DNA of 64,000 nt from Pseudomonas neustonica (GTDB taxonomy: Bacteria; Pseudomonadota; Gammaproteobacteria; Pseudomonadales; Pseudomonadaceae), in NCBI RefSeq assembly GCF_003797945.1, contig NZ_RKKU01000023.1, positions 1 to 64,000 on the forward strand, given 5' to 3'. Positions 18,860 through 30,325 of this stretch are shown here, piece by piece. The first letter of the stretch is position 1; each line of letters starts with the position of its first letter. The notes below the pieces were generated by a model that did no database searches, was not told the origin of the DNA, and worked only from the letters and a program-made list of their open reading frames with translations. Position numbers and translations under genes: made by a program.

Positions 18860-20296
18860 ATGACAACAGCACTGCCCGATGGCCTGATTGTAGTGGCCAA
18901 GGCCGATTGCCCTACCTGCCGCTTGGTCGAACCACTGCTCGCCGAAATGGCGCAAGGCGGCCCGCTGACTGTTTACGTGCAGGACTCAGTCGATTACGCC
19001 GCAGATTTGTCCGGCTCGCTTTACGACAAGACGCTGGAACACTCCTATCGCCTGGGCATCGAGTTCGTGCCCACACTGATCCGTGTTGAAAACGGACAGG
19101 AGGTCGAGCGTACCTATGGCTGGCACAAGGAAGACTGGCGACAGCTGAGCGGCGTGGCTGAGCTGGGTGAGGCGCTGCCGGTGATGCGCCCTGGCTGCGG
19201 TTCCAAAACGCTTGAGCCGGGCATTGCCGAGGAACTGGAACTGGCCTTTGGCGACATCCAGCTACAGTCCCGTGAGATCGACATTGCGGGCGCTGATGAC
19301 CCGATGGAGGCTTGCTACGAGCGGGGCTGGAGCGACGGTTTGCCGGTGGTGCCACCAACGCCGGTGCGGGTGTTGCGGATGCTCAAGGGTACCGAGCGCA
19401 AGCCCGATGAAGTCGTGGGTTTGATGCCGCCTGATCTGGTGCCTTGCACCGTGGAGAAAGTCGCGGTAAACGCCGTGCTCGCGGGCTGCAAGCCCGAGTA
19501 CATGCCGGTACTGTTGGCCGCGCTGGAAGCCTCACTGACCGATGAATTTGGCTTGCACGGGCTGATCTGCACCACCATGTTTGGTAGCCCGATGATCATT
19601 GTGAATGGCCCGGCGGCCAAGGCCATCGGCATGAACTCGGGGGTGAACGCACTGGGGCAGGGTAATCGCGCCAATGCCACTATCGGCCGCGCGCTGCAGT
19701 TGATTATTCGCAACGTAGGCGGCGGCCGGCCCGGTGAGATCGACCGCTCCACGCTGGGTAACCCCGGCAAGTACAGTTTCTGTTTTGCTGAAGCAGAAGA
19801 CAGTGACTGGTTGCCGCTGGCGCAGGAGCGCGGCGTCGAAGCAGGCCGTTCGGCGGTGACGATCTTCCCTGGTGAAGGCGTGCAGGGCATCGTTGACCAG
19901 AAATCCCGTGATCCTGAGTCCTTGGCGCGCTCCTTTGCGCTGTCGCTGCGCACCGTTGACCACGCCAAGCTGGCGATGGCCGGTGATGCGGTGTTGGTGG
20001 TATCGCCTGAGCATGCGCGGGTCTTTATCGACGCTGGTTGGTCCAAGCAGCGTTTGCGCGAAGAGCTGGAGCAGCTGCTGATGGCGCCCGGCGCGCAGCT
20101 TGTTGCTGGCTCCGACGGCATTGCCGAAGGTATTCCGGCGCGTTTTCAGGATCAACAGGTTCCCAAGTTTCGCCCCGGCGGTCTTTTGATCGTCCGGGCA
20201 GGCGGTACAGCAGGTCTGTTTTCCGCCATTATTGCTGGCTGGGCCGCGTCTGGCCCGGTTGGATCTTCTCCGGTAACACGTGAGGTAAATACATGA
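18860..20296 (+). CDS. Thioredoxin-like CPTC protein with a large conserved C-terminal domain, partner of the UGSC selenoprotein
   Basis: A 478-residue cytoplasmic protein. Residues 1 to about 115 resemble a thioredoxin fold, with the redox motif C17-P-T-C20 in KADCPTCRLVEP and a YGWHKEDWRQLSG end. The rest (about 135-478) is a domain I recognise only by its association with UGSC-family proteins; it contains ERGWSDGLPVVPPTPVRV, the cysteines of CGSK, PCTVEK and AGCKPE, and glycine-rich GGGRPGE. The ATG at 18860 is preferred because the thioredoxin fold begins right after it; the frame is open further upstream. Its stop overlaps the selenoprotein start by ATGA, so the two are translationally coupled. 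A redox role feeding electrons to the selenocysteine is inference. Confidence 0.7.
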   Translation: MTTALPDGLIVVAKADCPTCRLVEPLLAEMAQGGPLTVYVQDSVDYAADLSGSLYDKTLEHSYRLGIEFVPTLIRVENGQEVERTYGWHKEDWRQLSGVAELGEALPVMRPGCGSKTLEPGIAEELELAFGDIQLQSREIDIAGADDPMEACYERGWSDGLPVVPPTPVRVLRMLKGTERKPDEVVGLMPPDLVPCTVEKVAVNAVLAGCKPEYMPVLLAALEASLTDEFGLHGLICTTMFGSPMIIVNGPAAKAIGMNSGVNALGQGNRANATIGRALQLIIRNVGGGRPGEIDRSTLGNPGKYSFCFAEAEDSDWLPLAQERGVEAGRSAVTIFPGEGVQGIVDQKSRDPESLARSFALSLRTVDHAKLAMAGDAVLVVSPEHARVFIDAGWSKQRLREELEQLLMAPGAQLVAGSDGIAEGIPARFQDQQVPKFRPGGLLIVRAGGTAGLFSAIIAGWAASGPVGSSPVTREVNT

Positions 20297-20832
20297 ACGA
20301 CAGCATATTGCTCGATCCGACGGCCGAGCAGGCCCCGGCTCAGCGCTCGCGGCTGGCACGACCTGCCAGCCTTGAGGGCAAGGTAGTTGGCCTGCTGGAT
20401 ATTTCCAAGCCGCGTGGCAACGTCTTCCTTGATCGTATCGAGGAGCAACTGGCGGCGATGGGGATTGAGGTCAAACGCTACAACAAGCCGACCTTTACCC
20501 GTGTGGCGCCTACCGAACTCAAACAACAGATGGCCGCCGAGGTTGATCTGCTGGTAGAAGGGCTGGCTGACTGAGGGTCTTGTACGTCGTGCTGTATGCA
20601 TGACATAGCAGACCTGGAGTCACGCCAGATCCCAGGAGTAGGGGTTGCTTCCAGTGAATTTGTACAAGCGGCTGCCTTGCAGTCCAAGGCGCTTGGTTTT
20701 GATCCGGCGATGGTTTTTGTGCCACACCCGATCCAGGACCGTACCGATGATGAAATGCGCGCGCTGGCCGACGGCGCTCTGGCGGATATTCTGCGCCTGC
20801 TGCGTGCCGATGCAGAGGATGCCAGCGACTGA
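20293..20832 (+). CDS. UGSC-family selenoprotein with in-frame TGA as selenocysteine
   Basis: Read straight through the TGA at 20572-20574, one frame of 180 codons gives a 179-residue protein. Codon 94 is the TGA, and the following codons spell G-S-C, so the motif is U94-G-S-C97, with C100 and C101 close behind. The sequence continues in frame as MHDIADLESRQIPGVGVASS, with no break in protein character. UGSC proteins are a known selenoprotein family of undetermined function. A hairpin directly after the TGA fits a bacterial SECIS element. selA, selB and the tRNA-Sec gene follow immediately. Conventional gene calling would split this into a 93-residue protein and a second piece. The real stop is also TGA (20830-20832). 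Confidence 0.92.
20575..20615 (+). promoter_or_regulatory. Bacterial SECIS hairpin downstream of the selenocysteine TGA
   Basis: An inner stem, GTCGTGC (20586-20592) with GCATGAC (20598-20604), is seven pairs including one G-T, with loop TGTAT. An outer stem pairs GGTCT (20576-20580) with AGACC (20610-20614). The loop G at 20594 is 20 bases after the TGA, within the spacing usual for bacterial SECIS elements, which SelB binds in the coding region right after the UGA. Confidence 0.75.
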
Positions 20833-20853: not shown

Positions 20854-22242
20854 ATGACCGAGGTTGCCCAACCGATGCACCGCCCGCCGGCGGTAGACAA
20901 GGCGCTGAAGTGGCCCGACATGCAGGCGCTGGTGGCTATCCATGGCCGCGCGCTGGTGCTGGAATGCCTGCGGGTGGCACTGGAATCATGGCGCCAAGGC
21001 CACATCAGTGATGAGGCTGATGTGTTGCACGCGGTGCAGCGGCAGATCGAGCAGCTATTGGCGCCGTCCATGCGGGCGGTGTTCAACCTGACCGGCACGG
21101 TACTGCACACCAATCTGGGCCGCGCGCCCTTGCCGCCAGAAGCCATTGAGGCAATGACGGCGGTAGCGGTGGGTGCCAGTAATCTTGAATTCGATCTTGA
21201 GACCGGCCAGCGCGGCGACCGTGACGATCATGTCGAACAGTGGATTTGCCGGCTGACTGGCGCTGAAGCGGCGACCGTGGTCAACAATAACGCCGCCGCC
21301 GTACTGCTGGTGCTCAACGCCTTGGCCAACCGTCGTGAAGTAGTGGTGTCGCGCGGTGAGTTGATCGAGATTGGCGGTTCTTTCCGCCTGCCAGACATTA
21401 TGGCGCGCGCTGGCTGCAAGCTGCACGAAGTTGGCGCGACCAATCGCACGCACGCCAAGGATTATGTCGAGGCCATTGGCCCGCGTACTGCCTTGCTGCT
21501 CAAGGCGCATACCAGTAATTACCGGATTGAAGGCTTCAGCACGGCGCTGAGCGAGGCGCAGCTGGCCGAGATTGCGCGTGCGCATCAGGTGCCGCTGATG
21601 GTGGATCTGGGCGCTGGCTCACTGATCGACCTGCAGGCATTGGGATTACCTGCGGAGCCGGTGGTATCGCGGGTGCTGCAGCAAGGGGTTGATGTAGTCA
21701 CCTTTAGCGGCGATAAGCTGCTAGGAGGGCCGCAAGCCGGCATTATCGCCGGGCGCGCAGACCTGATCGCGCGCATTCGCAAGAGTCCGCTCAAGCGGGC
21801 ACTGCGTTGCGACAAGATGACCCTTGCCGCGCTGGAAGCGGTATTGCGTTTGTATGCTGACCCGCAAACGCTGGTGCAGCGCATTCCGGCGCTACGTTTG
21901 TTGACGCGCAGTCAGGCTGATATTCAGAGCACCGCAGAGCAGCTGTTGCCCAGGTTACAGGCCTGGGTGGGTGAGGCGCTTGAGGTCGACGTCTGTGCGG
22001 TCAGCAGCCAGATTGGCTCGGGCTCGTTGCCACTGGAGGTGCTGCCCAGCGCCGCCTTGCGCCTGCGCAGTCGCAGCGCTAATAAACGTACCCGCAGCCG
22101 CGATCTACGCACCCTGGCCGAGCGCTTGCGCCAACTACCGCAGCCAGTGATCGGGCGCATCGCCGATGACAGCATGCTGCTTGATTGCCGTTGTCTGGAA
22201 CACCCGGAAACCCTTCTGGCGCAGTGGGTCACCGAGGCGTGA
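20854..22242 (+). CDS. selA: L-seryl-tRNA(Sec) selenium transferase SelA
   Basis: PLP enzyme that converts seryl-tRNA(Sec) to selenocysteinyl-tRNA(Sec) with selenophosphate; 462 residues, the family's usual length. Visible landmarks are NLTGTVLHTNLGRAPLP, the AATVVNNNAAAVLLVLNAL segment and the PLP-lysine motif SGDKLLGGPQAG, with the lysine near 288. A GGAGGG ribosome site precedes the ATG. It starts 21 bases after the selenoprotein stop and its own stop overlaps the selB start. Selenophosphate would come from SelD, which is not in the window. Confidence 0.96.
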   Translation: MTEVAQPMHRPPAVDKALKWPDMQALVAIHGRALVLECLRVALESWRQGHISDEADVLHAVQRQIEQLLAPSMRAVFNLTGTVLHTNLGRAPLPPEAIEAMTAVAVGASNLEFDLETGQRGDRDDHVEQWICRLTGAEAATVVNNNAAAVLLVLNALANRREVVVSRGELIEIGGSFRLPDIMARAGCKLHEVGATNRTHAKDYVEAIGPRTALLLKAHTSNYRIEGFSTALSEAQLAEIARAHQVPLMVDLGAGSLIDLQALGLPAEPVVSRVLQQGVDVVTFSGDKLLGGPQAGIIAGRADLIARIRKSPLKRALRCDKMTLAALEAVLRLYADPQTLVQRIPALRLLTRSQADIQSTAEQLLPRLQAWVGEALEVDVCAVSSQIGSGSLPLEVLPSAALRLRSRSANKRTRSRDLRTLAERLRQLPQPVIGRIADDSMLLDCRCLEHPETLLAQWVTEA

Positions 22243-24092
22243 TCATTGCCACTGCCGGGCACGTGGATCACGGTAAGACCACGCTGATCAAAGCGTTGAC
22301 CGGCGTCGATACCGACCGTTTGGCCGAAGAAAAGCGCCGTGGGCTGACCATCGAGTTAGGCTTTGCCTGGTTGCCGACCGAGTCCGGCCTGCCGTTGGGA
22401 TTTGTCGATGTGCCAGGCCATGAAGGGTTCATCAGCACCATGCTGGCGGGTGTGGCTGGCGTCGATATGGCGCTGCTGGTAGTGGCCGCTGACGACGGCG
22501 TTATGCCCCAGACCCTTGAGCACCTGAGGATTCTGCGCCTGCTTGGCGTTAGCGAACTTGAGGTGGTGCTGAGCCGCTGTGATTTGGTGGATGGCGCGCA
22601 GCAGCAACGGGTTGTCGCGCAGATTGCTGAGTTGCTGCACGAGGAGGCTTGGCCGCTTGCCCCGGTATGGCGGGTTTCCAGTCTGAGCGGGCAGGGCATC
22701 GCCGAGCTCAAAGCGCATCTGTTGGCGCGCGCCGCCGAGCAGGTTGCGCAGAAGGTAGGTGGCCATGCACGGCTGATGGTGGATCGCCGCTTCAGTATTA
22801 CTGGCGCTGGGTGCGTGGTAACCGGCACCCTGGTCAGCGGCGAGCTTAAGCCAGGGCAGCGCTTGCTGTGCGGCGACGTCGAGTTGCGCGTGCGCGGTCT
22901 GCAGATGGCCAGTAAAGAGGTGACGGCGGTTCAGGCTGGTCAGCGCTGCGCCGTCAACCTGACAGGCGCGATCACTGAGGACGTGCCACGTCGTGGCGAT
23001 TGGCTCAGCAGCGCCCTATTGCCAGCAAGCGAGCGGCTGGATGTCGCCTTGCATCGGCTACCTGATAGCCGCTGGCACCGGGGCGTATTGCAGTTGCACC
23101 TGGGCACCGGGGTTTATCCGTTACGGGTGGTGATGCTGGATGACAGTGCCGAGCCGGTCATTGCTCAACTGATGCTGGAGCAACCAGTGCAAGCGGTCTG
23201 GGGTGAGCGTTTTATCATCCGCGACCCGGCAGCCAATACTACCTTGGGCGGTGGTCAACTACTCGATCCGCAAGGTTTGCGGCGTGGCCGCAGCAAGCCA
23301 CAACGCATCGACTTGCTGCGCGCCTGGCACGCGGCGAGGGATGCAGAACAGACATTCGCTGCTGCGCTGGCGCGGGGTGAGGTGGAACTAGTGAGCTTTG
23401 CCCAGCGCTTTAATCTGAACGATACCGAGCTTGAGGCACTGCTGGAGCGCAGCGAAGCGTTGCAGCTGGCCGGCTATGCACTGAGCGCAGAGCGCAGCGA
23501 ACATGCCTGGCAGCATTTACACCTGCGTTTGAGCGACTGGCACAGCGGGCATCCGGAACAATTGGGGCCAGGGGAGGGCGAGCTGGCGCTGGTTTCTACT
23601 CTGCAGTTGCCCCTGTCACTGGGGCGCACATTGTTACGTCGCTGGCTGGATGAGGGCAGGCTGCAGCGCCAAGCCTGGGCCTGGTATCTCGCGGGCCACA
23701 AACCGCAACTGCAAGCGGGCGACCAGGTGTTGTTGGCGCAGGTCAGTGAGCAGTTGCAGCCCGCTGGGCTGAGGCCACCGATTATTGGTGAGCTGGCCAC
23801 CCAACTAGCTATGCCGCTGGATCAGCTCAAGCCGTTTTTGCAACGTATGCAGCGCGCGGGTGAGCTGATAGCAGTGGCGCCAAATCGTTACTATTTGCCA
23901 GACCAGGTTGCGGGTCTGGTGGCCGTTGCAAAGGAGTTGGCGGCGGGCTCCGCCTCTGGTAGCTTCAACGCCGCGCAATACCGGGACGCCTCGGGTATCG
24001 GCCGTAACCTGACGATTCAGGTACTGGAATATCTGGACCGCGCGGGGGTTACCCGTTTCGTACGTGAACAACGTTTTCTTGCCGCAGGCTGA
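22239..24092 (+). CDS. selB: Selenocysteine-specific elongation factor SelB
   Basis: GTPase that delivers selenocysteinyl-tRNA to UGA codons by binding the SECIS hairpin. The start is the GTG at 22239, which overlaps the selA stop (GTGA) and begins MIIATAGHVDHGKTTLIKAL with the G1 motif at 7-14; the frame is open further upstream inside selA, but the family starts here. G2/G3 follow (EKRRGLTIELGFA and DVPGHEGFI). EF-Tu-like beta-barrels span about 170-340 and winged-helix RNA-binding repeats fill the C-terminal 280 residues. 617 residues, full length. Last protein gene of the selenocysteine operon; selC begins 21 bases later. Confidence 0.96.
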   Translation: MIIATAGHVDHGKTTLIKALTGVDTDRLAEEKRRGLTIELGFAWLPTESGLPLGFVDVPGHEGFISTMLAGVAGVDMALLVVAADDGVMPQTLEHLRILRLLGVSELEVVLSRCDLVDGAQQQRVVAQIAELLHEEAWPLAPVWRVSSLSGQGIAELKAHLLARAAEQVAQKVGGHARLMVDRRFSITGAGCVVTGTLVSGELKPGQRLLCGDVELRVRGLQMASKEVTAVQAGQRCAVNLTGAITEDVPRRGDWLSSALLPASERLDVALHRLPDSRWHRGVLQLHLGTGVYPLRVVMLDDSAEPVIAQLMLEQPVQAVWGERFIIRDPAANTTLGGGQLLDPQGLRRGRSKPQRIDLLRAWHAARDAEQTFAAALARGEVELVSFAQRFNLNDTELEALLERSEALQLAGYALSAERSEHAWQHLHLRLSDWHSGHPEQLGPGEGELALVSTLQLPLSLGRTLLRRWLDEGRLQRQAWAWYLAGHKPQLQAGDQVLLAQVSEQLQPAGLRPPIIGELATQLAMPLDQLKPFLQRMQRAGELIAVAPNRYYLPDQVAGLVAVAKELAAGSASGSFNAAQYRDASGIGRNLTIQVLEYLDRAGVTRFVREQRFLAAG

Positions 24093-24113: not shown

Positions 24114-24208
24114 GGAAGGACATCGTCCCCGGTGGGGCGCCCGGATTTCAACTCCGGTGAGATGCGCAACGCGTGTCTGGTGGGTTCGACTCCCATGTCC
24201 TTCCGCCA
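24114..24208 (+). tRNA. selC: tRNA-Sec (anticodon TCA)
   Basis: A 95-base tRNA with encoded CCA. The acceptor stem is eight pairs, GGAAGGAC (24114-24121) with GTCCTTCC (24197-24204), the hallmark of bacterial tRNA-Sec. The anticodon loop TTTCAAC carries TCA at 24148-24150, flanked by CCGGA/TCCGG. A long variable arm and the T-loop GGTTCGACTCC follow. It resembles E. coli selC throughout. Being 21 bases after selB it may be cotranscribed and processed from the operon message. Confidence 0.97.
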
Positions 24209-24769: not shown

Positions 24770-26773
24770 ATGAACGTTTTCAGTACCCAGGTTTCGGTGC
24801 GCTCAGCCTTGTTGACCGCCTCTCTACTTCCGCTGGCCGTTGCACTGACAGCCTGTAATAGCGGCTCAGGCTCCGATGACGACGAGGAGGTATCCAGCCG
24901 CACCGGTATCTTTGTTGACAGTGCAGTAGCCGGACTGGATTACGAGGGTGATGCCAGCGGCAGCGGTACCACCAATGCCAACGGCGAATTTACTTATGCC
25001 AGTGGTGAAACCATCCGCTTTGCGTTGGGTGAGCTACAACTCGGTTCGGCCGCAGGCGCTGAAACTCTGACGCCCTTAAGCATTGTAGAGGGTGCTGCCG
25101 GGGTCACCGACCAGCGTGTGAGCAATATGTTGGTGCTGCTGCAGACGCTGGATGCGGATGGCAACCTGAATAACGGCATTCAGTTGACCGAAGCCATTCG
25201 TGATGAGGTATCGCTTAATGCTGGCAGCCTGATGCTTGATCAGGCGCCTGCTGATTTTCGTGCCGGTTTGACCACGGTCGTAGCGACGCTCGAAGCTGGC
25301 GGCGCTTTCAGCGATACCGATCCTCGGGCCCGCACGCTGGTCAGCAGCGCCGACGCTCAAGAGCACTTTGCACGGTCAACCAGCGAGCGTTTGGTGGTCT
25401 CCACCACGGGTGGCGATCTTCGTGGTTTTGCAGCAGATGAGGCTACCTGGCAATTTCTCGGCGTGCCTTACGCTAAACCCCCACTGGGCGACCTGCGCTG
25501 GCGTGCGCCAGAGCTGCCGGAGCCTTGGCAGGGCGTACGTGATGCTGTGGCCTGGAGCGATCAGGCGGCGCAGAATCCTGGCCTGGAGCGCTTTGGTGAA
25601 GGCGGTATGAGCGAAGACTCGCTGTATCTGAACGTCACCGCGCCCAAAGATGCAGAACAACTGCCGGTGATGGTCTGGTTTCATGGTGGCGGCTTCACTT
25701 CGCTGACCAGCAATACGCTGCCTTTCAATAATCCCAAGGCGGTCGCCAGCAAGGGTGTAGTCCTGGTCGCGGTTAACCAGCGGTTGGGGCCATTCGGATA
25801 TATCGCGCACCCTGAGCTAAGTGCTGAGAGTGGCTATAACGGCTCTGGCAATTACGGTCAGATGGATCTGATCATGGCGCTGCAATGGGTGCAGGACAAC
25901 ATCGAAGCCTTCGGTGGTGATCCGGATAATGTCACTATCTTTGGCGAGTCAGGCGGTGGCCGCAAAGTCCTCTCGCTGATGGCCTCGCCCAAGGCAGCAG
26001 GGTTGTTCCACCGGGCGATCAGTCAGAGCGGTACGCTCTATCCGGATACCCGCAGCCTTGAGTCCGCAGAGGCTATCGGCAGCGACCTGCAAGATAATCT
26101 GAATGCCAGCTCACTGGCAGATATGCGTGAGAAGAGCTGGTTACAGGTTGTTTCTGCCGCGGCGGCGCTGGTGCCCTACACCAATGTGGATAACAACTAC
26201 CTGCCGACCACTGAGCGAGTCAGTTTCGAGAGCGGTGTCGATAACGATGTGCCCTTCATGTTTGTGATCAACACCAACGACACCATAGACCCGATCAATA
26301 CGGTAAAAGATGTCTTCCCGTGGATGGCTCCGCTGAAAGACTCGCCGACCTACGCCACCTTGTTCAGTCAGCAGCCCTCGGGTTGGAAAGCGCGGGGCGT
26401 GCAGGCTTATCACGGGGCCGAGCTGGCGTACATGTTCAATATGCCTACCAGCGTCATTACGCATTACCTTCTGGGCTTGGTGATCGACCCCGCGACCGGC
26501 ACGTCGCTGGTCATTGGTGATCTGAACGGCAACGGCGTGTCTGGTTCGGCTGGCGATCCTGCTGATATCTACGCCTCCGCTGGTTTCGATGAAACCGATG
26601 AAGTGGTCATCGACCGCATGCTGACGATCTGGACCAACTTTGCCAAGACCGGTAATCCCAGCATCGCTGGAGAAATCGCATATCCCGAATATGACGCCCA
26701 GGCCCAGCAGTATGTAGAGCTGAGCGATGTCGCCGAAGTGAAGACGGGTATTGCTGACGAGTTTGCAGACTAA
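24770..26773 (+). CDS. Type-B carboxylesterase lipoprotein
   Basis: A 667-residue exported lipoprotein with lipobox ending LTAC and an acidic linker rich in Asp/Glu. Residues about 40-200 form an accessory domain with a TGIFVDSAVAGLDYEGDASG start, a motif found in other surface lipoproteins. The esterase domain begins near 210 ([16 protein letters not shown]), with oxyanion-hole WFHGGGF, the nucleophile elbow FGESGGG with Ser394, and a late TNFAKTGNPS segment. It belongs to the para-nitrobenzyl esterase/cholinesterase family. It is followed by a close paralogue. Hydrolysis of ester compounds at the cell surface is likely; the substrate is unknown. Confidence 0.9.
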   Translation: MNVFSTQVSVRSALLTASLLPLAVALTACNSGSGSDDDEEVSSRTGIFVDSAVAGLDYEGDASGSGTTNANGEFTYASGETIRFALGELQLGSAAGAETLTPLSIVEGAAGVTDQRVSNMLVLLQTLDADGNLNNGIQLTEAIRDEVSLNAGSLMLDQAPADFRAGLTTVVATLEAGGAFSDTDPRARTLVSSADAQEHFARSTSERLVVSTTGGDLRGFAADEATWQFLGVPYAKPPLGDLRWRAPELPEPWQGVRDAVAWSDQAAQNPGLERFGEGGMSEDSLYLNVTAPKDAEQLPVMVWFHGGGFTSLTSNTLPFNNPKAVASKGVVLVAVNQRLGPFGYIAHPELSAESGYNGSGNYGQMDLIMALQWVQDNIEAFGGDPDNVTIFGESGGGRKVLSLMASPKAAGLFHRAISQSGTLYPDTRSLESAEAIGSDLQDNLNASSLADMREKSWLQVVSAAAALVPYTNVDNNYLPTTERVSFESGVDNDVPFMFVINTNDTIDPINTVKDVFPWMAPLKDSPTYATLFSQQPSGWKARGVQAYHGAELAYMFNMPTSVITHYLLGLVIDPATGTSLVIGDLNGNGVSGSAGDPADIYASAGFDETDEVVIDRMLTIWTNFAKTGNPSIAGEIAYPEYDAQAQQYVELSDVAEVKTGIADEFAD

Positions 26774-26806
26774 GCGATTTATAACAATAAAAACCCAGGC
26801 CTGGTG

Positions 26807-26840
26807 CTCCCGTATACGGCAACGCCGCTATGTACGGGAG
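26807..26840. repeat. Hairpin between the two esterase genes
   Basis: An 8-bp stem, CTCCCGTA with TACGGGAG, encloses an inner GGC-AAC-GCC hairpin. It lies 33 bases after the first esterase and 25 before the second. There is no T-run; it may attenuate transcription or stabilise one of the messages. Confidence 0.5.
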
Positions 26841-26865
26841 TGTTAGTGTCTGGAAGGAGAAGGAC

Positions 26866-28896
26866 ATGAACAATCGCAGCAATGAGAGATTTCCCCTGCG
26901 GATGACACTGCTGAGCGCTGCTTTGCTGCCGCTGCTGTCGCTGAGTGGGTGTAACGACGGTGATGGTGACGATGACAACACCGATGCGACTCCGGCAACG
27001 GGCACCTTTGTCGACAGTCCGGTAAGCGGGCTGGATTATCAGGGCGACGAAAGTCGGCAGCGGCCAAACCGATGCGACTGGGCAATTCGATTACTTCCCG
27101 GATGAAACCATCACCTTTGCCATTGGTGATCTGGAGCTGGGTGCGGCAGCCGGCGCGGAGCAATTGACGCCGCTGAGCATTACAGAAGGTGCAACAGAAG
27201 CAGGTGATCCACGCGTAAGCAACATGCTGGTACTGCTGCAGAGCCTGGATGCCGACGGCAATTTGAACAACGGTATTCAAATTACGCAGCAGATCAGTGA
27301 TGAAGTCTCCTTTAGCGCTGCCGAACTTGATCTGAGCCAAGCGGCTGCTGATTTCAACAGCAAGCTGGCTAAAGTGCTGGACACCCTGGAAACCGCTGGT
27401 GCCTTCAGTGATACCGATCCGCGTGCTCGCACGGTCACCAGCGCAGCTGACGCGCGCGCGCACTTTGACCGCTCGACCAGCGAACGTATTGTGGTTGCTA
27501 CTGAGGGGGGAGAGCTGCGCGGTTTTGCGGCCAGCGAAGATACCTGGCAGTTTCTCGGTGTGCCCTATGCCAAACCGCCGGTGGCCGAGTTGCGCTGGGC
27601 ACCGCCCCAGCCTGCTGAGCCTTGGGATGGCATCCGCGATGCTGAGCCTGGGCTGACCAGTCGGCACAGGATACTAACCTGGAAGGTGTCAACGAAGGAG
27701 GCATGAGCGAAGACTCGCTTTATCTGAATATTACGGCGCCCAAGGATGCGGAAAACTTGCCGGTCATGGTCTGGTTCCATGGTGGTGCTTTCGCCATTCT
27801 CTCGGCTAACTCGCAGCAGTACAACAACCCGGATGGGCTGACCGAGAAAGGCGTAGTGCTGGTGACGGTAAACCATCGCCTAGGGCCGTTTGGCTATATT
27901 GCTCATCCTCTGCTGACCGCAGAGAGTGGTTACGGCGGTTCCGGCAATTACGGGCAGATGGATCTGGTGATGGCGCTGGAGTGGGTGCGTGACAACATTG
28001 CGGCCTTCGGGGGTAATCCGAGCAATGTCACGCTGTTCGGCCAATCCGGCGGCGGTGGTAAAACCTATTCACTGATGAACTCGCCTCAGGCCACCGGCCT
28101 GTTCCATAAGGCGATAGTACAGAGTGGCGTAGCACCAATGGACGAAGAGGGCGGGCCAGAGGTATCGCTGGCTGCGTCCGAAGCGGTCGGTGAGGCAATG
28201 TTCGCTCGCGCAGGCGTGAGTACTCTGGAAGCGGCGCGAGCACTTCCCTGGAATGAGCTGATCAGGTCTGAGCAGCAAAATAAAATTCCGCGCGAGATCT
28301 ACCGGCCCAATTCTGACAATTACTATCAGCCCAATACCTATTACCAGAACGTGGTTAATGGCATGCCGAGCGATGTACCGCTGATGTCGGGCGTAACCTC
28401 GGGTGACTACACCACCATTCGCGCAGCCTTGCCTATCTGGCTTGAACAGCGCTGCGCGCAGTATCAGTCTGAACAGTTTATCTACAAGTTCAGCCGCGTG
28501 CCGCCGGGTTGGAGTGCCATGGGTTTGGCCAGTTGTCACGGTTGTGAACTGCCGTATTTGTTCAACTATCCGGCAGCTATGGTGCAGAATTACCTGCTGG
28601 GGCTGGTGTTGACACCAGAGGGCAAACGGCCGCCGATTGGTGATCTAAACAACAACGGCGTGAGTGGCTCGCAGGGTGATGCGGCGGACGTGTTTACCTC
28701 AATGCAATACGGTGCCACAGACGTAGCCATTGCGGATCAAACCATGACCATGTGGACCAACTTTGCCAAAACCGGTAATCCGAGTAGCGCCGGCTTTGAT
28801 TGGCCAGCCTACACCCTGGCCAACGATACGTTTGTAGAGATAGGTCCGGAGGGTGACGCGACCGTGGAAACGGGTCTGGCTGACGCCATAAAGTAG
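26866..28896 (+). pseudogene. Second type-B carboxylesterase lipoprotein, two compensating frameshifts
   Basis: Paralogue of the preceding esterase along its whole length, starting at the ATG at 26866 after GGAGAAGG, with lipobox LSGC. Frame one runs to about 27052, where GAAAGTCGGCAGC has one base more than the paralogue implies; frame two then covers the accessory domain and the start of the esterase domain. Near 27645, GAGCCTGGG lacks one G relative to the expected GAGGCCTGGG, and the first frame resumes to the stop. The total length is divisible by three (676 residues if corrected). The nucleophile elbow reads FGQSGGG, with Gln where the paralogue has Glu. It is either a decaying duplicate or affected by two base errors. 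Confidence 0.75.
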
Positions 28897-29049: not shown

Positions 29050-29126
29050 TTCCGAAACTTGACCCGGCTTCCATCCGCTTGGCTCCTAACAGGCTCCTGG
29101 AAACGGGTCTTTCCAAGGAGTCAGCT

Positions 29127-30325
29127 ATGGCCAAGATCAAGCTCACCAAGTCCGCAATCGATGCGGCAAAACCCCAAGCACAGCCCGTCGAGCTGCGTGA
29201 CACCCTCGTTCCCGGCTTCCTGTGCAAGATTACACCTGCCGGTCGCAAAGTCTTCATGCTCCAGTATCGGACGAACGCCGGCGAGCGGCGCAAGCCTGCA
29301 TTGGGTTTGTACGGAGAATTGACCGTTGAGCAAGCCCGATCATTGGCACAGAGTTGGTTGGCTGAGGTACGCCGGGGTGGCGATCCCGGAGCTGCCAAGG
29401 CCGAAGCGCGCAAAGCGCCGACGGTCAAGGAACTGTGTGTGAAGTTCATGGAGGACTACTCCAGGCACCGCAACAAACCCAGCACTCAGAGAGGCTACCA
29501 AGGCAATATTGACCGCAACATCATTCCAATCCTGGGTCGTATGAAGGTACAGGATGTGAAGCGCGCTGACGTGGCGGCGATGATGAAGAAGCTTGACTAT
29601 AAGCCAGGCGAGGCCAATAAAGCTCTGTCCGTCCTGCGTAAGATGTTCAACCTTGCTGAGATTTGGGGCTACCGCACGGATGGCTCTAACCCGTGCCGAC
29701 ACATTCCGCTGTACACCGGCGGCAAGACAACCCGCCTCATTACTGACGAAGAGATGGTCAAGCTGTTCAAGTATCTTGACCAAGTCGAGGCTGAACGCCT
29801 AGTGCCTTAGTCATCCCGTTGGCTATTCGTCTGCAATTCGAGTTCGCAGCCCGACGTTCCGAAATCGTATTGCTCGAATGGGAGTGGATCGACCTAGAGA
29901 AACGCCGGGTAGTTTGGCCGGATAGCAAAACCGGTGGCATGTCTAAGCCCATGAGTGAGGAAGCCTATCGACTGCTTTCCACGGCACCTCGACAGGTAGG
30001 CGCACGCTATGTACTGCCATCGCCGCGCAACCCGCTCACCCACTTGACCTATGGGGAGTATTACGGCGGTTGGACTCGTACGCTCAAGGCGGCTGGCGTC
30101 ACGCACGTCGGTACGCATGGCATCCGACACCGCTCGGCCACAGACATCGCCAACTCTGGCATTCCGGTCAAGGTAGGCATGGTTCTGACGGCGCACAAGA
30201 CCGTGACCATGTTCATGCGCTATATCCACACCGAGGACGATCCGGTGCGCCAAGCAGCTGAACTGGTGGCGAACCGGCGCAAGACGATTACAGGAGCCTC
30301 ATGCGTGAAGGAAACCGCAGTATGA
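29127..30325 (+). pseudogene. Tyrosine recombinase (phage-type integrase), frameshifted
   Basis: The ATG at 29127 follows AAGGAG. The N-terminal arm-binding domain begins MAKIKLTKSAIDAAKP; a SAM-like core-binding domain follows (PTVKELCVKFMEDYSRHRNK). The frame stops at 29808-29810, and the frame one base back continues as LAIRLQFEFAARRSEIVLL to the end, so one base is missing near 29800-29810. The catalytic residues are in the second part: Arg of AARRSE, HGIRHR box, and Tyr of MFMRYIHTEDD. Corrected, it would be about 399 residues. It probably once mobilised the cassette to its right. Whether an active enzyme is made depends on whether the shift is real. Confidence 0.85.

Follow-up and report, generated by a model that had tools for sequence, protein, structure and literature searches.

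A UGSC-family selenoprotein gene of Pseudomonas neustonica, its thioredoxin-like partner, and an apparent distant kinship with the selenocysteine domain of glycine and proline reductases

Glycine and proline reductases have been studied in clostridia. UGSC proteins form a selenoprotein family that has been in print since 2008, and we describe here a new member of it, encoded in a 64,000-nucleotide stretch of Pseudomonas neustonica DNA (assembly GCF_003797945.1, contig NZ_RKKU01000023.1, positions 1 to 64,000; hereafter the window), together with the gene directly upstream and the selenocysteine (Sec) decoding genes directly downstream. In its passages on the family, a 2021 survey attributes 8.2% of selenoprotein genes to UGSC. 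Earlier papers, where they touch on UGSC, place it among redox selenoproteins with the thioredoxin fold, and the UGSC passage of one Global Ocean Sampling survey (PMC2398784, 2008) describes a fusion of UGSC to a domain named Unknown_1. The preliminary description of this DNA had said that the biochemical role of UGSC proteins is not established, and the literature passages on the family agree. We find that UGSC is, as far as sequence comparison can tell, distantly related to the Sec domain at the C terminus of component B of glycine, sarcosine, betaine, and D-proline reductases, not to thioredoxin, and that with its upstream partner it most likely makes up a thioredoxin-fed, Sec-dependent reductase. 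The features concerned are as follows, where SECIS denotes a selenocysteine insertion sequence.

18860..20296, + strand: partner gene, thioredoxin-like domain plus a domain called UNK1 here (weak thioredoxin matches; UNK1 without a Pfam or NCBIfam family)
20293..20832, + strand: UGSC-family selenoprotein gene, 179 residues with predicted Sec94 (NF041046, PF24696, homologues)
20572..20574, + strand: in-frame TGA very probably read as Sec, motif U-G-S-C-T-S-C (homologues, TGA/TAG pattern)
20575..20615, + strand: SECIS-like hairpin, upper stem-loop 20586-20604, G23/U24 at 20594-20595 (U of UGA = 1)
20854..22242, + strand: selA, selenocysteine synthase (TIGR00474, 587 bits)
22239..24092, + strand: selB, Sec-specific elongation factor (TIGR00475, 351 bits, scan started at 22242); GTG start taken from the sequence, overlapping the selA stop
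24114..24208, + strand: selC, tRNA-Sec, anticodon UCA (RF01852, 76.1 bits)

The UGSC frame runs from an ATG at 20293 to a terminal TGA at 20830-20832, and its single internal stop is the TGA of codon 94, after which the codons read GGG TCT TGT (G-S-C). The gene has the U/C-G-S-C motif with Sec at an in-frame UGA, and the frame passes the curated cutoffs of both family models (147.7 bits against 125 for NF041046 and 142.2 bits against 25 for PF24696); the 179-residue protein has a computed mass of 19.3 kDa with Cys substituted for Sec. The preliminary description had read one frame broken only by this TGA, assigned it to the UGSC family, and seen selA, selB, and selC directly behind it; the coordinates prove exact, both family cutoffs uphold the assignment, and selA does begin at 20854, followed by selB and the tRNA-Sec gene.

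Could the TGA nonetheless be a true stop that leaves a 93-residue product, whether from a pseudogene or a sequencing error? A plain list of open reading frames (80-residue limit) holds only the first 93 codons of the frame. The window is GC-rich, and frames with a single TGA flanked by at least 80 open codons on each side are not rare there: it contains 17, the UGSC frame among them, so this pattern alone proves nothing. What lifts the UGSC frame above chance is homology that spans the TGA, together with the comparative evidence.

How consistently is the codon conserved as a stop? We compared a genus sample of 37 genomes and a class sample of 369 (each including the window's own), as well as a wider sample of 80 loci found in a named genome collection using only UNK1, the partner domain. 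UGSC matches occurred in 27 of the 37 genus genomes—the named relatives nearest to the window being Halopseudomonas—and exactly one TGA lay inside the match in all 27, the window's own included. The class sample yielded 15 matches in 6 of 369 genomes, 14 with one TGA and one without a stop; the latter, beside UNK1 at locus L047 of genome G373, carries Cys in place of Sec (CGLC). All 80 wider loci contain a UGSC frame, and the Sec codon is TGA in 77 and TAG in 2, with one frame ending at a contig end before the codon; TAA was found in none of the 79 loci that reach it. The preliminary description had staked its claim on homologues that align across the TGA, and they do: every genus match spans one TGA, and of the 79 wider loci 77 span TGA and two TAG.

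The two TAG loci both belong to Blastococcus, and in both genomes the top-scoring tRNA-Sec match carries the anticodon CUA (69.5 and 64.2 bits against RF01852), compared with UCA in all three TGA genomes searched alongside them. A passage of PMC5330540 had already reported a CUA-anticodon tRNA-Sec together with UGSC-motif selenoproteins in Geodermatophilaceae. ARAGORN calls the Blastococcus CUA tRNA-Sec (L180 and L181) a tRNA-Pyl, which is a trap for automatic annotation.

Is there a signal in the RNA behind the codon? From 98 sequences with exactly one stop in the matched frame, 68 nonredundant ones were retained at an 88% identity limit, and the 48 bases from the Sec codon onward were folded against 100 synonymous recodings per sequence. 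The mean folding z score was -1.76 at the Sec codon (n = 68) and between -0.69 and +0.56 at 18 other offsets; the window hairpin itself has a minimum free energy of -20.5 kcal/mol and a z score of -3.9 against synonymous shuffles. As in bacterial SECIS elements, then, a hairpin lies directly 3' of the UGA and is more stable than its synonymous alternatives. A passage of a review (PMC8659212) describes the Escherichia coli SECIS as having G23/U24 in the apical loop and a bulged U17. G23 and U24 of the apical loop are likewise invariant in all 62 sequences of a core set, from which the six divergent members of the 68 were left out, and the loop codon is NGT in 62/62. Where this codon encodes Ser it is always AGT (43/43, against 50/601 elsewhere in the same genes), where it encodes Cys always TGT (15/15 against 37/174), and where it encodes Gly always GGT (4/4 against 68/646). 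Of the 62 core sequences, 61 form every one of the six inner pairs (16-32 to 21-27), most of which are invariant, and 59 have a minimum-energy fold in which the loop is closed.

The preliminary description's central claim, that the TGA is recoded as Sec, is thus borne out by the TGA in 27/27 genus matches, the TAG/CUA pairing, and the hairpin after the stop, and we regard codon 94 as very probably read as Sec. Homology across the codon, the match of TGA or TAG to the tRNA-Sec anticodon, the lack of TAA in 79 loci, and RNA-level selection after the codon make a true stop extremely improbable.

What accompanies UGSC? The stop codon of the partner gene overlaps the UGSC start (ATGA). Its product begins with a thioredoxin-like domain (approximately residues 1-105, CPTC at 17-20) whose matches to TIGR01068 (E = 0.0016) and PF13098 (E = 0.0024) are below the curated cutoffs; UNK1 follows at approximately residues 142-478 (about 340 residues), with no family match in Pfam or NCBIfam and no relative of solved structure found by sequence. 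In the predicted structure of the partner (predicted local distance difference test, pLDDT, 85.4), the first domain matches thioredoxins in a search of PDB folds. A likeness of UNK1 to fumarate hydratase was considered and set aside, as it is too weak for a fold match (E about 1e-3, template modeling [TM] score about 0.2).

UNK1 and UGSC keep close company. In the class sample, UNK1 was found in exactly the 6 of 369 genomes that hold UGSC, and in the genus in 26 of 37, every one a UGSC genome; the lone UGSC genome without a UNK1 match, G026, has its UGSC gene at one end of a contig of 3004 bases, so that the upstream gene would fall past the contig end. UNK1 is unbroken in G011, a genus member whose UGSC score equals that of G008, a genome to which we return below. 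Although the wider loci were sought through UNK1 alone, UGSC lies nearby in 80/80—directly downstream of the UNK1 gene in 77 (gap 0-265 bases), on the opposite strand and other side in two (L111 and L116), and 3.9 kb downstream in one (L110)—and the thioredoxin domain of the partner was detected in all 80. One gammaproteobacterium (G368) carries nine UGSC copies, each a single chain with UNK1 in which UGSC comes first; the UNK1 profile search listed 6 of these nine fusions, only six candidates having been scored. No more than 20 bases separate one of these fused copies, which has no thioredoxin domain, from a gene of the thioredoxin-reductase type with CASC, and this arrangement fits reductive chemistry. 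Among the G368 fusions (L044, L045, and L172-L177) the motifs are UGSC, USTC, USSC, and USLC, and six copies, judged by eye, have a hydrophobic export-type N-terminal leader. From these co-occurrences the partner is apparently obligate for UGSC; linkage of the two genes is observed directly, and from it we infer a physical complex of their products. Unknown_1 of PMC2398784 is probably the same domain as UNK1.

To which known proteins is UGSC related? When 43 UGSC proteins were searched against NCBIfam (E up to 1), 40 matched TIGR01917, glycine reductase selenoprotein B (best E = 1.7e-4), 37 sarcosine GrdF (best E = 8.3e-5), 18 TIGR01918, and 13 betaine GrdH; every other NCBIfam family matched two at most. 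TIGR01918-like proteins occur in 24 of the 42 UGSC genomes searched (the genomes of 42 of the 80 loci), with E at most 1e-3, none above the curated cutoff and most with one TGA; as many as nine such matches were seen in one UGSC genome. In all 25 TIGR01918-like loci that were read (L135-L159) the TGA falls within a motif of the type PVUPxC, which sets them apart from the UGSC genes themselves. The GrdB motif is given as UxxCxxC in a passage of a review.

Profiles of 68 UGSC sequences and 23 of the 25 GrdB-like proteins (two longer than 520 residues were dropped) were then compared with hhalign. The two align Sec on Sec over 96 columns with a probability of 87.7 and a score of 48.9, and 100 column shuffles reach at most a score of 18.2 and a probability of 0.7; with the motif masked on both sides the probability is still 74.0 and the score 42.8. 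By this comparison UGSC contains a GrdB-homologous Sec domain with UxxC, although at 179 residues against 431 model positions it lacks the full GrdB/PrdB architecture with its N-terminal region and pyruvoyl partner. Taken together, the hhalign and NCBIfam matches point to distant homology between UGSC and the Sec domain of GrdB/PrdB. This homology differs from the thioredoxin-fold placement in earlier papers, and the passages on UGSC read in the open literature, to which the search was confined, mention no UGSC-GrdB link. In the same literature the NCBIfam accession of the family turned up in one paper and its Pfam accession in none. Another family, PF07355, was set aside: the window UGSC protein had no match within E 0.01, its genome held none, and the matches in 7 of 398 genomes of the phylum were weak and without TGA.

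Might UGSC instead be a generic thiol or peroxide oxidoreductase, in the manner suggested for many Prx/Trx-like selenoproteins, with a Sec94-Cys97 UxxC pair acting on disulfides or peroxides and recharged by the thioredoxin domain, and UNK1 in a docking or regulatory role? The UxxC motif, the attached thioredoxin domain, and the published placement of UGSC, in the passages cited, among thioredoxin-fold redox selenoproteins all suit such an enzyme. The predicted fold does not: the AlphaFold2 model of UGSC (pLDDT 91.8) is a (beta-alpha)5 arrangement in which Sec94 follows strand 3 and precedes helix 3, and the hhalign probability is 0.8 against the thioredoxin domain versus 87.7 against the GrdB-like proteins. 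On these predictions, a thioredoxin-like fold for UGSC was rejected. In a Foldseek comparison with the PDB, the best matches of the UGSC model were weak and for the most part flavodoxin-like (best E = 1.1e-4), and all 24 with E up to 0.001 had TM scores below 0.5; by sequence, the search for solved relatives returned a single chance-level match (E = 0.46). The large co-occurring UNK1 and the nine divergent copies in one genome suggest, moreover, a specific substrate site, and we judge a generic oxidoreductase unlikely.

How is UGSC distributed relative to the Sec machinery? Across the genus, the 27 genomes of 37 with selA above its cutoff are those that have UGSC, so that presence agrees in all 37; G030 (79% completeness) has a partial selA match and no UGSC. 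By comparison, selD exceeds its cutoff in 34 of 37 genomes, including some without UGSC or selA, and is therefore not tied to UGSC, whereas selA is. In 23 of the 27 genomes about 330 bases or less separate the UGSC match from the selA match, and in G012 both are at contig ends. UGSC is apart from selA in G016, G020, and G029, where selB comes after UGSC; these three genomes, and no others of the sample, have a formate dehydrogenase with a TGA above the TIGR01553 cutoff. No Sec formate dehydrogenase above that cutoff was found in the other 24 of 27 UGSC genomes, other selenoproteins not having been searched systematically, and UGSC may be the chief reason that the genus retains Sec decoding. 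A match below the TIGR01553 cutoff, with one TGA, was seen in G021 (C1:2363326-2364072), a genome in which no selA was found. A search of the window's own genome with TIGR03309 (yqeB) gave no match.

The cassette is not confined to this genus. A single stretch with the thioredoxin-UNK1 gene, UGSC, selA, selB, and tRNA-Sec occurs in 8 of the 80 wider loci (L048, L049, L050, L052, L056, L057, L058, and L062, the last with selB before selA), the hosts being Halopseudomonas (three), Pseudohongiella, Rhodoferax, Aquabacterium, Burkholderiales, and an unclassified gammaproteobacterium. Seven further loci, some ending at contig ends, have selA and/or selB, with L063 and L064 showing only a weak SelB match (28% identity). 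Over all 80 loci, selA was seen in 12 and selB in 14 (two weak, as above), both being lower bounds as many flanks are short.

Such proximity raises the question of whether the pair serves selenium metabolism itself (e.g., by supplying SelA/SelB with selenium or sensing it for them), a role that would account for the shared cassette, the closeness of UGSC and selA in 23 of 27 genus genomes, their 37/37 concordance (counting full selA matches), and the adjacency of UGSC to selA or selB in several other bacteria. The fetched flanks of most wider loci, however, show no sel gene, and UGSC stands away from selA in the three genomes with a Sec formate dehydrogenase. Nine copies in G368, six with an export-type leader, would be a misfit for selenium supply, and at least 1 of 14 control genomes exceeds the selA cutoff while none of the 14 has UGSC. 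We therefore consider a role in selenium supply or sensing quite improbable.

How might a Sec-dependent reductase made of UGSC and its partner work? UGA codon 94 would be decoded as Sec by SelA, SelB, and tRNA-Sec encoded just downstream, directed by the hairpin after the UGA. UGSC would then be one subunit of a two-part enzyme, and the upstream thioredoxin-UNK1 protein the other part, with UNK1 holding a small substrate. The Sec94 selenolate, at the end of strand 3 of the (beta-alpha)5 sheet, would attack this substrate, and a C-X bond would be cleaved reductively; a Se-S bridge could then form with Cys97 or Cys100, to be reduced in turn by the CPTC thioredoxin domain. The mechanism draws on the Sec and two later cysteines (UGSCTSC), the thioredoxin-like domain in the partner, and the co-occurrence of the two. 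To the whole of this reading—a Sec-recoded UGSC, a two-part enzyme with the thioredoxin-UNK1 protein, and GrdB-like reductive cleavage—we assign a probability of roughly 60%.

Several observations weigh against it. The 80 wider loci are the best ranked of at least 585 confirmed places and hence lean to close relatives. For the hairpin, the codon evidence is strong, and the pairing evidence supportive but thin: the bulged U17 of the E. coli element is absent (C17 in 62/62 core sequences), covariation is limited, as two variable stem pairs exceed shuffled pairing at P = 0.049 and 0.017 before any correction for the 7 pairs tested, and pair 15-33, the seventh, is formed in 36/62, no better than shuffled. 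G031 (91% complete) has UGSC and selA and no selD above the cutoff, owing either to incompleteness or to another selenium donor. UNK1 is broken by a TAG and a frame change in G008 (C1:740472-741442), where UGSC is intact. On the side of kinship, the window UGSC scores 15.5 bits against TIGR01917, below the curated cutoff of 602.2; GrdB/PrdB-type reductases are not among the best 50 of its 1886 PDB fold matches; and beyond thioredoxins only fumarate hydratases stand out among the best 50 of 508 fold matches of the partner. UNK1 has no match to GrdE/PrdA-type families at E up to 1, and the pyruvoyl chemistry of those enzymes is consequently not supported here. Nor do gene neighbors name a substrate: clusters in the 80 loci are mixed and consistent with no single one, the genes seen being common ones, such as LivK/LivH/LivG-type transporter parts near 25, thiolases near 12, and alpha/beta hydrolases near 12.

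A broader and more tentative proposal, to which we give somewhat less than even odds, is that UGSC/UNK1 forms its own class of enzymes for Sec-dependent reductive cleavage, one that belongs to the glycine/proline reductase superfamily as a branch, has no recognizable pyruvoyl subunit, uses an unrelated, new-fold substrate domain (UNK1), extends well beyond clostridia, reaches nine copies in one genome (six with export-type leaders), and can travel with selA, selB, and selC. The partner gene, the GrdB/PrdB relation, and the cassette all go beyond the preliminary description, and together they make the role of UGSC testable. An orphan family becomes an enzyme that can be put to the test: one can name its two subunits, its electron donor, its chemistry, and a genus that hosts it.

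Farther downstream in the window, 24770-28896 holds two tandem carboxylesterase-like frames (the family being read from the translation). The first (24770-26773) is one open frame, and the second relative is spread over three (26830-27105, 27164-27706, and 27703-28896), as if decayed or misread. Some 5 kb past selC, at 29079-30325, lies a tyrosine-recombinase-like frame, also read from the translation and split into two pieces (29079-29810 and 29819-30325).

How, finally, does the locus compare with described systems? With GrdB, GrdF, GrdH, and PrdB it shares the alignment of Sec with Sec, the UxxC motif, and a similarity that outlasts masking of that motif; it differs in that UGSC corresponds to only the C-terminal part of the reductase model, scores far under the family cutoff, and has in UNK1 a partner unlike GrdE/PrdA-type families. 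Like the E. coli fdhF-type SECIS, the element has a hairpin right after the UGA and G23/U24 in the apical loop, with C17 in place of the bulged U17 and an upper stem of approximately 15-21 paired with 27-33. As in the UGSC/Unknown_1 fusion described in the passage of PMC2398784, a conserved domain is joined to UGSC, although the window has two overlapping genes and a partner that carries a thioredoxin-like domain. Measured against the UGSC family itself (NF041046/PF24696), the window protein passes both cutoffs, has the UGSC motif and an in-frame UGA, and differs in nothing essential; it is an ordinary member, here in a cassette with selA, selB, and selC.

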